The notes under the pieces: model-generated
What the model was told of the DNA's origin: nothing
Databases searched by the model: none
Seen by the model: the letters and a program-made list of their open reading frames with translations, nothing else
Assembly: GCA_035697485.1 (NCBI GenBank)
Contig: DASSCU010000005.1
Location: 62,001-126,000, forward strand
Length of the DNA: 64,000 bases
Source of the DNA: Actinomycetota bacterium
GTDB lineage: Bacteria; Actinomycetota; UBA4738; HRBIN12
Reading direction: 5' to 3'
Translations under genes and position numbers: made by a program
In this document: in pieces, positions 58,695 to 63,076 of the stretch
How positions within the stretch are numbered: position 1 is the stretch's first letter
How the letters are laid out: every line of letters begins with the position of its first letter

Positions 58695-59477
58695 TTACCC
58701 ACGAAGGGTTCGGTCCACACCACCCGTCGCCGCGCGATGCAGGTATCGGGCGAGCGCAGACCTCGGCACCGAGACGACGTCGCCGACCACGAGCGTGGCG
58801 GGCGGGCCGATACTGGCCGCGGCGGCGAGCGTGGGCAGGTCGTCGAGGGTACCGACCACGGTGCGCTGCTCGTCGGTCCACGCCCACTGCACGACCGCGG
58901 CGGGCGTCGACACGTGCCGGCCCGCCTCGATGAGGGTGGAGCAGGTCTCGGCCAGCTTCCCAGCCGCCATCAGGACGACCAGGGTGTCGGTCGCCGTCGC
59001 CATGCGCGTGAGGTCGACGGTGTCCTCGGCGTGCGCGGTCGAGCCGGTGACGACGGCGAACGACCGGGCGACCGAGCGATGGGTCATCGGGATGCCGGCC
59101 GCAGCCGGCGCAGCGACGGCGCTCGTGATGCCAGGGACGATCTCGACGGGGATGCCGGCCTCGTCGCACGCGAGCATCTCCTCCCCGCCGCGCCCGAACA
59201 CGAATGGATCCCCTCCCTTGAGGCGCACGACCACGTGGCCGCTCGCGGCCTCGTGCACGAGCAGGGCGCCGATCTCTCGCTGCTCCATCGCCTGCCTGCC
59301 CGGTTCCTTGCCGACGTAGATGCGGCGGGCGTCGGGCGGCGCCAGGTCGAGCAGGGCCGGGGCGGCGAGGCGGTCGTAAACGACGACGTCGGCCAGCGCG
59401 AGGACCCTTGCTCCCTTCACCGTGATCAGGTCGGGATCGCCGGGGCCCGCACCGACCAGTACGACGCGTCCAGTCAT
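58695..59477 (-). CDS. cobA: Uroporphyrinogen-III C-methyltransferase (SUMT)
   Basis: Makes precorrin-2, the first step from uroporphyrinogen III to siroheme. 260 residues; motifs GAGPGDPDLITVKG at the N-terminus, VYDRLAAPALL, LKGGDPFVFGRGGEE and VPGITSAVAAPAAAGIPMTHR are all present. Its ATG overlaps the stop of the met8-like gene by four bases, and it is the last gene of the sulfite-reduction operon. Confidence 0.93.
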   Translation of the reverse strand: MTGRVVLVGAGPGDPDLITVKGARVLALADVVVYDRLAAPALLDLAPPDARRIYVGKEPGRQAMEQREIGALLVHEAASGHVVVRLKGGDPFVFGRGGEEMLACDEAGIPVEIVPGITSAVAAPAAAGIPMTHRSVARSFAVVTGSTAHAEDTVDLTRMATATDTLVVLMAAGKLAETCSTLIEAGRHVSTPAAVVQWAWTDEQRTVVGTLDDLPTLAAAASIGPPATLVVGDVVSVPRSALARYLHRAATGGVDRTLRG

Positions 59478-60124
59478 GCCGGCGCCTCTTGGAGCAGACG
59501 GTCCCTGAGCCTCGCCGCGAGCTCGTCGGCGCGACCGTCGCGGATCAGGGCCGCCGCCTCGCCGAGGTCGAGCGCGTCGGCCCAACGGCGCGCGCGCGTC
59601 GCGAAGTCGGGCAGCGACGGCGTCGTCTCGGCGCGCACCGTGCGCAGCACCGCCAGGACCTCGGACCATTCCTCGCCGAAGGAGGCAGAGAGTTCCGCGC
59701 GTAACTTCTTCGCCAAAGCCGGTGACGCGCCACCGGTCGCGATCGCCAGCACGAGCTCGCCGCGACGCACGACGCTCGGTGCCGACCAGTCGCAGTTGGG
59801 GATGTCGTCCATCACGTTCACCAGTGCCCGGCGGCTCCGGGCTTCGCGGGCGATCGCGTCGCGCTCGCCGGCCTCACGGCTCGCCGCGACGACGAGGAAC
59901 GCGCCGTTCAGGTCGTCGGCGCGCCACGCTCGGCGTTCCACGACGACGCCGTCGACGCGCTCGAGTTCGTCGAGCCGAGCCGCCGGGACGGGCGAGACCA
60001 CCAGCACGTCGTCGGCGCCGGCCCCGATCATCGCTTCGACCTTGCCCTCGCGCACGGCGTCGGCACCGATCACGACGCACCGCCGCCCCGACAGCTCGAG
60101 CATCACGGGATAGCCGAACGGCAT
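59474..60124 (-). CDS. Precorrin-2 dehydrogenase / siroheme synthase N-terminal domain
   Basis: 216 residues of the Met8/CysG N-terminal type. The Rossmann loop is CVVIGADAVREGKVEAMIGAG, then a conserved NCDWSAPSVVRRGELVLAIATGGASPALAKKLR (in part) with the Asp important for dehydrogenation. It converts precorrin-2 to sirohydrochlorin and may insert iron. It overlaps cysH and cobA genes (ATGA each). A separate chelatase gene is not in the window. Confidence 0.9.
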   Translation of the reverse strand: MPFGYPVMLELSGRRCVVIGADAVREGKVEAMIGAGADDVLVVSPVPAARLDELERVDGVVVERRAWRADDLNGAFLVVAASREAGERDAIAREARSRRALVNVMDDIPNCDWSAPSVVRRGELVLAIATGGASPALAKKLRAELSASFGEEWSEVLAVLRTVRAETTPSLPDFATRARRWADALDLGEAAALIRDGRADELAARLRDRLLQEAPA

Positions 60125-60951
60125 CACGAGCCTCCCTCGACGGTGGCCTCCGCCTTCTCGCGATCGCTCCGAGACCCGGCGAGCTCCACGCTGCAGTGGA
60201 TGCCGCACTCCTTCGCGGTGTCGTGCTCCCACCACCAGCGGCCGGCTCGCTCGGGCTCCCCCGGCTCGACCGGTCGGGTGCACGGCGCACATCCGATCGA
60301 GGCGTACCCGTGATCGAAGAGCTCGTGGTAGGGCACCTCGTGCGTGCGGACGTAGTCCCAGACCTCGTCGAGCGTCCAGTCCGCGAGTGGGTTCAGCTTC
60401 ACGATGCCGCCGTGGTCGCGGTCGAGCTCGACCTTCGCGATATTGCGCCGCGAGGCCCACTGCTCGCGGCGAAGGCCGGCGATCCACGCGTCGAGCGTGG
60501 CGAGCTTGCGCCGCAGCGGCTCGACCTTGCGCACGGCGCAACACGCGAGCCGCAGATCGACGTCGCGATACATCAGATTCGGACCCTCCCGATTCACGAG
60601 CGAGGCAACCGCCGCCGTGTCCGGGTACTCGAACTCCACGGCGATGCCGTACCGCTCCCGCACCTCCTCGAACAGGGTGTACGTCTCGGGCGGCAGGCGT
60701 CCGGTGTCCAGCGTGAAGACCCGCACACCGGGGTCCAGCCGCCACGCCATGTCGATCAGCACCATGCCGTCGACGCCCCCTGCGGCGCTGATCGCGAGCT
60801 TCGGGTGGAACCGCTCGAGCGCCCACTCGAGCAGCTCCTCGGCCCGCGAGTGCTCGAACCGTTCGGCCGCGTCGTGCACCCACATCGCTTCCTCGGCGAC
60901 CACCGGCATCGTCGGCTCGTGCCACGGTGCCCGCGGATCGGAATCGGCCAT
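60124..60951 (-). CDS. cysH: Adenylylsulfate reductase, iron-sulfur type
   Basis: Reduces activated sulfate (APS or PAPS) to sulfite. 275 residues. The nucleotide loop is LAISAAGGVDGMVLIDMA; the 4Fe-4S ligands appear as RLACCAVRKVEPL and GCAPCTRPV, marking the assimilatory APS-reductase type; the catalytic cysteine motif ECGIHC is near the C-terminus. ATG at 60951 overlaps the zinc-ribbon stop. Sulfate adenylyltransferase genes are not in the window. Confidence 0.93.
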   Translation of the reverse strand: MADSDPRAPWHEPTMPVVAEEAMWVHDAAERFEHSRAEELLEWALERFHPKLAISAAGGVDGMVLIDMAWRLDPGVRVFTLDTGRLPPETYTLFEEVRERYGIAVEFEYPDTAAVASLVNREGPNLMYRDVDLRLACCAVRKVEPLRRKLATLDAWIAGLRREQWASRRNIAKVELDRDHGGIVKLNPLADWTLDEVWDYVRTHEVPYHELFDHGYASIGCAPCTRPVEPGEPERAGRWWWEHDTAKECGIHCSVELAGSRSDREKAEATVEGGS

Positions 60952-61100
60952 CAGCCCGCACCCCCCACGGTGATCGCGGTCAGCTCGAACCCGCGCTCGC
61001 ACGACTCGCATCGCCATGCCGACCTCGCGGCGTCGTCGGGTCGGATGCCCTGCTCGCCGCAGAACGGGCAGTAGAACGGCACCGCACGCTCGCCCGTCAT
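60951..61100 (-). CDS. 49-residue zinc-ribbon protein of the sulfite reductase operon
   Basis: A small protein with two CxxC pairs (FYCPFCGEQG and WRCESCERGF), a complete zinc ribbon. The ATG overlaps the nirA stop by four bases and its stop overlaps the cysH ATG. Small genes of this kind sit between sulfite reductase and cysH in other Actinobacteria, so it is probably conserved; function unknown. Confidence 0.82.
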   Translation of the reverse strand: MTGERAVPFYCPFCGEQGIRPDDAARSAWRCESCERGFELTAITVGGAG

Positions 61101-62818
61101 TGCAGCTCGCCGTGGTCGGGCGCCGGCTCGGCGAACCGGGCGAGCGCGGCGGCGTCGAGGGCGTTCACGAACGACGAGAATGTGTCGTCGTCGGCTCGTT
61201 GGCCGGCGTAGCGGCGCAGCAGCAGCTCGAGGTAGTCGGCCGCGTCCTCCGCGTAGATCTTCACCCCACGGACCTTGCGGCCGAAGGCCGCACCCTCGCC
61301 CATCGTCCCTCCCAGGTGCACGAGGAACGCATCGCTCTTCGTGCCGTCGGGTCGCGTGCGCAGCGCCGACATCAGCCCGATATCGGCGACCTGGAAGCGC
61401 GCGCACGAGTTCGGGCACCCGTTCACGTGGATGCGGACGTCCTCGTCGAAGCCCGGCAACCGAGCCTCGAGCTCCGTCGTGATCCAGGTGGCACGCCCCT
61501 TCGTCTCGCCGATCGCGAGCTTGCAGAACTCGATGCCCGTGCACGCCATCGTCGAGCGGCGGAAGACGCTTCCACGGGCTCGGAGATCGAGTCCGTCGAG
61601 GGCGGTGACGAGCTCGTCGGACCGACCGGCCGCCACGTCGACGATCACGAGCTTCTGCTGAGCGGTGGCGCGGACCGACCCCGATCCGTACGCGTCGGCG
61701 AGATCGGCGACGAGCCGGAGTTGGTGCCCGGCGATCCGCCCTGCTCGCGGGGCGAACCCCACCGACACCCGTCCGTCGCGCTGCGGCATCACGCCGAGGT
61801 GCTCCCGAGCCCCCATCGGCGCCGGTCGTGGTGGAGGCCCATCAGGCAGGGGTCCCCGCTCGAGGAACTCACCTTCCAGCACCTCACGGACGCGCTCGGG
61901 ACCCCAGTCCTTCACGAGGAACTTCAGCCTGGCATGGTTGCGCGATCGCCGATAGCCGTACTCACGGAACAACGAGGTGACGCCCGCCCAGACCTCCGGT
62001 GCGCGCTCTCGAGGCACGAACGCGCCGAGGCGCTGGGCGAACATCGGGTTCGTCGACAACCCTCCGCCCACCTGCAGGTCGTACCCGAGCTCGCCACCGG
62101 GCCCGGCCACGCCCGCGAGCGAGACGTCGTTGATCTCGTGGTTCGTGCACCCGACGAGGCACCCGCTGATCGAGGTCTTGTACTTGCGCGGGAGGTTCGA
62201 GAACGCGGGATCGCCGACGAACCGCTCGGCCACCGCACGGATGTCCGGGGTCGCGTCGAACGCCTCGTCGGCGGTGACCCCTGCGAGCGGGCATCCGAGG
62301 ATCACCCGCGGGGTGTCGCCGCAGGCTTCCTGCGTCGAGAGCCCCACTGACTCGATGCGCTCCCAGATCGCAGGCACGTCCTCGATGCGGATCCAATGCA
62401 GCTGCACGTTCTGCCGGTCGGTCACATCGGCGACGTCGCGGCCGAACCGTTCGCTCGCCCACGCGATCGCACGGAGCTGCTCCGTGGTCATCGCACCGCC
62501 GTCGATGCGGATGCGCATCATGAAGAACTCGTCCTCGAGCTCCTCGTGTTCGGCGCTCCCCGTGCGTTCGCCCGGCACGCCCTGCTTCCGCTGCGTGTAG
62601 AGGCCCCACCACCGCATGCGATTGCGCAGGTCCTGCTTGCCGATCGAGCGGAAGCCGCGGGGCGCGAAGATGCGCTCGATGCGCTCGCGCACGTTGAGAC
62701 CGTCGTCTTCCTTCTTGATCTGCTCGGCCGGGTTCAGCGGCTCGTGATACCCCAGTCCCCACTGCCCCTCGCCGCGACGACGCGGGGTGCGGGTGACGGG
62801 GGTCGTGGTGTCGGTCAT
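61097..62818 (-). CDS. nirA: Ferredoxin-dependent sulfite reductase
   Basis: 573 residues. Siroheme and 4Fe-4S cluster ligands are in CTGIEFC and CPNSC, with the upstream siroheme-binding Arg/Lys blocks DRQNVQLHWIRIED and KTSISGCLVGCTNHEINDV; Tyr in LYTQRKQG and Cys in ACGDTPR correspond to the Tyr-Cys pair of NirA-type enzymes. The operon with cysH favours sulfite over nitrite as substrate. GGAGGT lies three bases before the ATG and is part of a hairpin. The leader contains a cysteine-rich upstream ORF. Confidence 0.93.
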   Translation of the reverse strand: MTDTTTPVTRTPRRRGEGQWGLGYHEPLNPAEQIKKEDDGLNVRERIERIFAPRGFRSIGKQDLRNRMRWWGLYTQRKQGVPGERTGSAEHEELEDEFFMMRIRIDGGAMTTEQLRAIAWASERFGRDVADVTDRQNVQLHWIRIEDVPAIWERIESVGLSTQEACGDTPRVILGCPLAGVTADEAFDATPDIRAVAERFVGDPAFSNLPRKYKTSISGCLVGCTNHEINDVSLAGVAGPGGELGYDLQVGGGLSTNPMFAQRLGAFVPRERAPEVWAGVTSLFREYGYRRSRNHARLKFLVKDWGPERVREVLEGEFLERGPLPDGPPPRPAPMGAREHLGVMPQRDGRVSVGFAPRAGRIAGHQLRLVADLADAYGSGSVRATAQQKLVIVDVAAGRSDELVTALDGLDLRARGSVFRRSTMACTGIEFCKLAIGETKGRATWITTELEARLPGFDEDVRIHVNGCPNSCARFQVADIGLMSALRTRPDGTKSDAFLVHLGGTMGEGAAFGRKVRGVKIYAEDAADYLELLLRRYAGQRADDDTFSSFVNALDAAALARFAEPAPDHGELQ

Positions 62819-62841
62819 GGGACCTCCGGTGCTGCCGGTCC
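62819..62841 (-). promoter_or_regulatory. Hairpin covering the nirA ribosome site
   Basis: On the minus strand GGACC (62841-62837) pairs with GGTCC (62823-62819), placing the nirA Shine-Dalgarno GGAGGT in the stem. AGGTCC can alternatively pair with GGACCT at the end of the upstream ORF (62908-62903). Confidence 0.5.
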
Positions 62842-62853
62842 GGGGAACGCGAA

Positions 62854-62875
62854 GGGCCGCCGGTGGCGGCGGCCC
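62854..62875 (-). terminator. Candidate attenuator hairpin before nirA
   Basis: GGGCCGCC and GGCGGCCC form a perfect 8-base stem with a six-base loop on the minus-strand transcript, followed by TTCGCGTT, about 20 bases after the upstream ORF stop. Confidence 0.5.
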
Positions 62876-62899
62876 GGGCGATGCGTGAGGTGTGGAGGA

Positions 62900-62974
62900 T
62901 CAGGTCCGCGCGCGCGCGTCGGCGCACGAGGCGCCGCAGGCCGCGGGCATGCCGCAGAGGCGCGAGGGGATCAT
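62900..62974 (-). CDS. 24-residue cysteine-rich leader peptide
   Basis: ATG at 62974 follows GGTGGGGG three bases away. The frame begins MIPSRLCGMPAACGASC, then ends ADARART, with Cys codons (all TGC) at positions 7, 13 and 17, and stops 81 bases before nirA. Three cysteines in 24 codons before a sulfite-reductase operon suggest a peptide whose translation senses Cys-tRNA. It lies within a transcript starting near 63040. Confidence 0.7.
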   Translation of the reverse strand: MIPSRLCGMPAACGASCADARART

Positions 62975-63046
62975 GGCCCCCACCAGCCCGGCCGTGCGCG
63001 TGCGGATCACGGTGATTCGTACCCCTCAGGTCGGATTTGCAGGTGC

Positions 63047-63076
63047 AACGTATCCGCGTCGCGGAACCGATGTCAA
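63047..63076 (-). promoter_or_regulatory. Promoter of the sulfite-reduction operon
   Basis: On the minus strand, consensus TTGACA (63076-63071) and TACGTT (63052-63047) are 18 bases apart; transcription would start near 63040, 66 bases before the leader-peptide ATG. Confidence 0.75.

Follow-up and report, generated by a model that had tools for sequence, protein, structure and literature searches.

Upstream of nirA, the window (the whole 64,000-nucleotide stretch of DNA analyzed) contains a small open reading frame (ORF) with several Cys codons. This raises the question of whether expression of the genes that follow is tied to cysteine supply through a translated leader and, if so, by which mechanism.

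Operon, promoter, and leader reading frame at nirA

All features of the locus lie on the minus strand. The gene nirA (61097 to 62818) encodes a ferredoxin-type nitrite/sulfite reductase (Pfam NIR_SIR; the best NCBIfam match, PRK09566, was below the cut-off) and is preceded by the Shine-Dalgarno (SD) sequence GGAGGT at 62822 to 62827. Downstream are cysH, encoding a (P)APS reductase (60124 to 60951; Pfam PAPS_reduct, NCBIfam PRK02090), a gene for a Met8-like siroheme synthase (59474 to 60124; Pfam NAD_binding_7 and Sirohm_synth_M), and an ORF judged by its sequence to be uroporphyrinogen-III C-methyltransferase-like (58695 to 59477). A 49-aa zinc-ribbon-like ORF between nirA and cysH (60951 to 61100; weak HVO_2753_ZBP match) overlaps each of them by a few bases, and its product is possibly a redox or metal partner. 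The coordinates and the Pfam and NCBIfam matches bear out the first-pass annotation, in which nirA heads a sulfite-reductase operon, and the Pfam assignments place the regulated pathway at nirA in sulfate/sulfite reduction towards cysteine.

A consensus promoter had also been proposed. The -35 hexamer TTGACA (63071 to 63076) was indeed perfect, and TTGAC occurs at the equivalent place in the rhodanese and nirA leaders of relatives, but the -10 element was weak, and a sigma-70 promoter scan called no site at threshold. The candidate -10 is TACGTT (63047 to 63052), which has 18-nt spacing and aligns with TAGGAT, TAGCAT, and TACGGT in relatives; GATACG (63049 to 63054) is an alternative.

The small ORF had been described as 24 codons long, starting at the ATG at 62974, with its own SD sequence. 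Comparison with relatives retained the ORF and its SD sequence but altered its start and length: the ATG corresponds to a conserved internal Met13, and the frame extends from a GTG at 63010 to the TGA at 62902 to 62900, giving 36 codons (62900 to 63010; MIRTRTAGLVGAMIPSRLCGMPAACGASCADARART) and an N-terminal sequence of VIRTRTAGLVGAMIPSRLCG. The SD sequence is GAGGGG (63022 to 63027), relatives having a purine-rich SD sequence at the same place, and the putative 5' untranslated region is ∼30 to 40 nt. The three TGC codons previously noted are codons 19, 25, and 29 of the longer frame (62954 to 62956, 62936 to 62938, and 62924 to 62926, respectively); in the same-genus relative, Cys25 is absent and Cys29 is retained. 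Codons 19 and 20 read Cys-Gly, unlike the Cys-Cys of most copies, and the nirA leader has no Cys run.

Distribution and conservation of the leader peptide

A search of the same genome with the leader DNA located two further paralogous places, one upstream of tusA (MICTREAGIVGAMIPDRICCSC) and one upstream of a rhodanese gene (MVRTRCIGEVAAMIPSRLCCPATGADPEMHT). The first-pass annotation, with its single leader before nirA, had overlooked both, together with the operator palindrome described below. A pattern derived from the conserved core was present in 17/27 genomes of the class, including all eight near-complete ones, while the reversed-control pattern gave zero matches in the same search. With a 20-residue profile, 45 copies were found in 20/27 genomes of the source organism's actinobacterial class, with up to three copies per genome. 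Among 370 actinobacterial genomes outside the class, the profile returned only two matches (G155 and G316), neither convincing, which were rejected as chance at an E value of about 0.005. Scanning 84,980 species genomes returned 24 contigs, all metagenome-assembled, of which 23 were labelled Actinomycetota, Actinobacteria, or Actinomycetes and one only "bacterium." As far as the records examined show, the source class is represented only by metagenome-assembled genomes, and the leader provides a handle on sulfur control there.

The genes following the leaders, almost all connected with sulfur, were nirA, cysH, tusA, and those for rhodanese, a carbonic anhydrase, and a single small unknown protein. 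The carbonic anhydrase-like gene, of the beta type, follows leader L038, and the small protein, which starts MSLFVV(E/R)H, is encoded downstream of leaders in two genomes of the order (L099 and L102). No family in NCBIfam or Pfam covers the peptide, and an Rfam search of the leader for a riboswitch or known leader gave no match at the gathering score. It is well supported that these peptides form an apparently undescribed family, M[IV]RTRxxGxV[GA]AMIPxR[LI]C[C], whose 20-codon core, defined from the alignment and codon table, occupies 62951 to 63010 at nirA.

Most family statistics were calculated on 44 of the 45 copies, with L027 left out. Across 44 distinct cores, pN/pS was 0.42 in the leader frame, falling to 0.21 at conserved positions, whereas the other two frames gave 1.24 and 1.58; the leader reading frame is thus a conserved coding frame under purifying selection. 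Thr4, Arg5, Gly8, Val10, Met13, Pro15, Arg17, and Cys19 were invariant in the alignment. Codon 19, the putative regulatory codon, specified Cys in 44/44 leaders (TGC in 40), and codon 20 specified Cys in 36/44, with TGT used in 35 of these 36 (for example, L059 and L032). Within the window, TGT accounts for 25/148 Cys codons (∼17%, by a rough gene call in a GC-rich genome), and one possibility is that TGT at codon 20 is a slow, supply-sensitive codon. The absence of the small ORF or its Cys codons from related genomes, named in the first-pass annotation as an outcome that would count against it, was not observed. Instead, in 20 genomes both were conserved and preceded sulfur genes, and this recurrence strongly supports the proposed cysteine-responsive leader peptide.

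Simple codon counting does not account for the strong N-terminal conservation or for the near-fixed UGC-UGU pair, which suggest that the nascent chain or codon kinetics play a part. A conceivable, though rather doubtful, extension is that MIRTRxxGxVGAMIPxR acts as an arrest peptide. Cysteine, or a sulfur metabolite related to it, would then be sensed directly by the nascent chain within the exit tunnel together with the UGC-UGU pair, and this one sensor would have been coupled to different outputs (terminator, Rho, or translation) throughout the class's sulfur regulon.

Terminator-like hairpin and mechanism of control

The GC hairpin previously noted as 8 bases long is present at 62875 to 62854, although its stem is actually 9 bp, with a loop of 4 (GGGCCGCCG-CCAC-CGGCGGCCC; 62854 to 62875). 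It is followed by a T-enriched tail, TTCGCGTTCCCC (62842 to 62853), resembling those of relatives; the T tract after the hairpin is interrupted (4 T in 14). RNA structure prediction, suggested earlier as a check, gave a divided result: the post-stop hairpin surpassed all of its shuffled counterparts (0 of 300), whereas the nirA leader folded as a whole was not more stable than shuffled sequence (z +1.1). GC-rich post-stop hairpins with T-enriched tails were found in the copies upstream of nirA and cysH and in roughly half of those upstream of rhodanese genes. In this terminator class, 17/17 leaders had a hairpin at p<=0.05 (p 0.00 to 0.04, dinucleotide shuffles of each leader's own region), values that are partly circular because the class is defined by the hairpin itself, and the distance from hairpin to stop codon was 22 to 42 nt in 16/17. 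The hairpin core GGCCGC/GCGGCC is nearly constant while the flanking pairs vary, and across 15 leaders the variable stem pairs stayed matched beyond shuffles, 7 of 5000 reaching the observed level. Searched genome-wide as terminators, GGCCGC...GCGGCC hairpins gave fewer matches than the reversed control and were uninformative, as was a rough search for other terminators in the window.

The spacing between Cys19 and the stop codon was at least 39 nt in 17/17 terminator leaders compared with 7/27 others (Fisher p 7e-7, uncorrected for relatedness). Such spacing is needed for attenuation, because ribosomes at the stop codon and ribosomes stalled at Cys must cover different segments. A further hairpin, P1 (CGGCGC-CTCGT-GCGCCG; 62920 to 62936), was predicted in the ORF tail by the centroid fold and has 8 bp in the same-genus relative; tested alone against shuffles in the terminator leaders, it was individually weak (p 0.00 to 0.61).

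Because a conserved Cys leader ORF is combined with a terminator-like hairpin after its stop codon, the best reading of the leader is a ribosome-mediated transcription attenuator responding to cysteine supply, which we consider fairly probable. Elements characteristic of trp/his-type attenuators were found, namely, an ORF that by its sequence is of the translated type, codons for the end product, and a predicted terminator-like hairpin before the first gene. The nirA operon would be transcribed from TTGACA/TACGTT, with a ribosome trailing RNA polymerase and translating the 36-codon leader. With charged tRNA-Cys plentiful, the ribosome would reach the stop codon and cover the surrounding sequence, so that the GC hairpin would form and transcription would end before nirA. 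With cysteine short, the ribosome would stall at Cys19 or at one of the Cys codons beyond it, and the freed stop-codon segment GCGCGGACC would base-pair with GGGCCGC in the 5' arm of the terminator-like hairpin; the resulting antitermination would allow transcription to read into the nirA-cysH-siroheme genes. In this scheme, we infer stalling, termination, antitermination, and the cysteine signal at the nirA leader.

The putative antiterminator strand, GCGCGGACCUGA (62900 to 62911), spans the stop codon, and a GCGG-rich stretch recurs at this position among leaders (GTGCGGTAG, GTGCGGCCGTAG, and GCGCGGACCTGA) and can pair with the terminator 5' arm. The energy of the antiterminator duplex was not stronger than that of shuffled sequence (z near zero), and for this reason the strand is treated as a candidate. 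When a ribosome was modelled at the stop codon, the terminator was formed in 17/17 leaders (probability at least 0.87). A modelled stall at Cys19/Cys20 abolished it in 5/17 leaders (three cysH and two nirA); in most leaders, including the nirA copy of this window, the terminator persisted in the equilibrium stall model (0.97 to 0.99).

The switch proposed in the first-pass annotation was a different one, with a hairpin hiding the nirA SD sequence and the end of the small ORF able to pair with that site instead. Both pairings are possible on paper (GGACC/GGUCC in the case of the hairpin), but AGGUCC is missing at the SD sequence of the same-genus relative, whose sequence also differs where the ORF end would pair. 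Since this relative does not share it, sequestration of the SD sequence was rejected as the principal switch at nirA. The masking switch is left unsupported; the conserved element is instead the terminator-like hairpin between leader and gene. Translation attenuation more generally, in which the nirA ribosome site is masked by leader RNA until a ribosome stalling at the Cys codons exposes it, draws some weight from the tusA and some rhodanese copies, which are without a terminator, from the drawable hairpin over the SD sequence, and from its being the mechanism reported for the Cys upstream ORFs (uORFs) of M. smegmatis (Canestrari 2020, as cited in PMC13236596). We nevertheless judge it unlikely, since the conserved hairpin of the terminator copies (nirA, cysH, and rhodanese) lies well 5' of the SD sequence, the same-genus nirA leader lacks the masking sequence, and predicted SD accessibility showed no pattern, its values lying between 0.01 and 0.69.

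Somewhat less likely again is a Rho-dependent, tna-like control, in which release of a ribosome that has not stalled would expose C-rich leader RNA to Rho and a stalled ribosome would shield it. The strong hairpin of the nirA copy speaks against it, and the tusA copies are its most likely case: most tusA leaders have no significant hairpin, 7/16 end two or three codons past codon 20, and the RNA 3' of them is C-rich and G-poor (about 0.5 C and 0.2 G), although base composition provides little evidence of a rut site. Control by Rho has also been suggested for mycobacterial cys leaders (PMC1262725). That the peptide is instead a functional small protein, such as a sulfur carrier or partner, and not a cis-acting leader would account for the conservation of its first 20 residues beyond the needs of attenuation, but it is highly improbable given that the peptide precedes unrelated genes, occurs in as many as three copies per genome, has a variable tail, and is located in leaders with terminators. 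Transcription attenuation is thus the likeliest mechanism at nirA.

No terminator follows the tusA leaders or the remaining rhodanese copies. Many tusA leaders begin almost at the inferred transcript start, and only the tusA copies look near-leaderless. In the terminator-less copies, stalling of the ribosome probably affects either the access of Rho or how the following gene is translated, and it seems that one cysteine sensor drives more than one output. Copies with and without terminators therefore offer a natural comparison of transcriptional, Rho, and translational outputs of a single sensor.

Cysteine attenuators are already known; what is new is this peptide family and its terminators. 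Mycobacterial Cys leaders before cys operons were predicted in 2005, without terminators (PMC1262725), their translation was found (PMC4633059), and they were later reported to be translational attenuators (Canestrari 2020, as described in PMC13236596). Like the present leaders, the mycobacterial uORFs (cysA2 and cys operons) are short, carry Cys codons near their end, precede actinobacterial sulfur genes, and have a proposed or reported cysteine response. They differ in lacking a conserved terminator hairpin (PMC1262725) and in being, as described, leaderless and translational, whereas the nirA and rhodanese ORFs have SD sequences and are followed by a terminator-like hairpin, and the profile search of the 370 genomes sets the peptides apart, with no detectable relation outside the class. 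The leaderless ORF with a Cys run near the stop codon that marks the mycobacterial type was not found in the nirA copy. In Rhodobacterales, cysS is preceded by a Cys uORF with an intrinsic terminator, uORFC-8-2 (PMC8632094), which shares with the present leaders tandem Cys codons followed by such a structure (here, a terminator-like hairpin). It belongs to another phylum, precedes cysS, and has its Cys codons at 14 and 15 with UGC dominant, whereas the present family almost always has UGU at codon 20, together with a long, conserved N-terminal part. The trp attenuators of Corynebacterium and Streptomyces (PMC1262725) also have a leader peptide, a GC-rich gGCC...GGCC terminator, and a stop codon between the regulatory codons and the terminator, but their amino acid and genes differ, and the antiterminator is only a candidate here. 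The present leader thus appears to work like the mycobacterial and Rhodobacterales systems, while membership in either is unsupported, since no relatives of the peptide were detected beyond the class and the nirA copy is neither leaderless nor endowed with a Cys run. Bacterial cysteine attenuation has been documented in few places, and the terminator-free mycobacterial form left the mechanism open; the present leaders add an unrelated family of peptides that recurs within a single genome and has conserved terminators in only part of its copies.

Promoter palindrome and Fur-family gene

The palindrome TTGCACCTGCAA (63037 to 63048) is a probable operator overlapping the transcription start of nirA, and further copies are found at the promoters of sulfur genes and at a gene of the Fur family. 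Genomes with the leader family contain 1 to 7 occurrences of TTGCANNTGCAA. Perfect sites in this genome were found at nirA, tusA, a JAMM/MoeB operon, a single rhodanese gene, the Fur-family gene, a CbiM-like gene, and one other place; the rhodanese leader of contig 43 has the variant TCGCACCTGCGA. The position of the palindrome relative to the -35 and -10 elements is variable and both orientations occur, as expected of a DNA operator. Judging from these sites, TTGCANNTGCAA probably adds a second control, at the level of initiation.

The site at the Fur-family gene (Pfam FUR; L138, G000:C64:33782-33793) precedes the gene here and in relatives, recurring in at least six of them. This arrangement makes the palindrome genes a candidate Fur-type sulfur regulon with autoregulation, and we infer that the Fur-family protein regulates them. 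Near the Fur-family gene, a TTGCAACTGCAA site also lies 5' of the gene for a CbiM-like cobalt/nickel transporter (L139, G000:C64:36917-36928), a possible link between sulfur/siroheme metabolism and metal supply.
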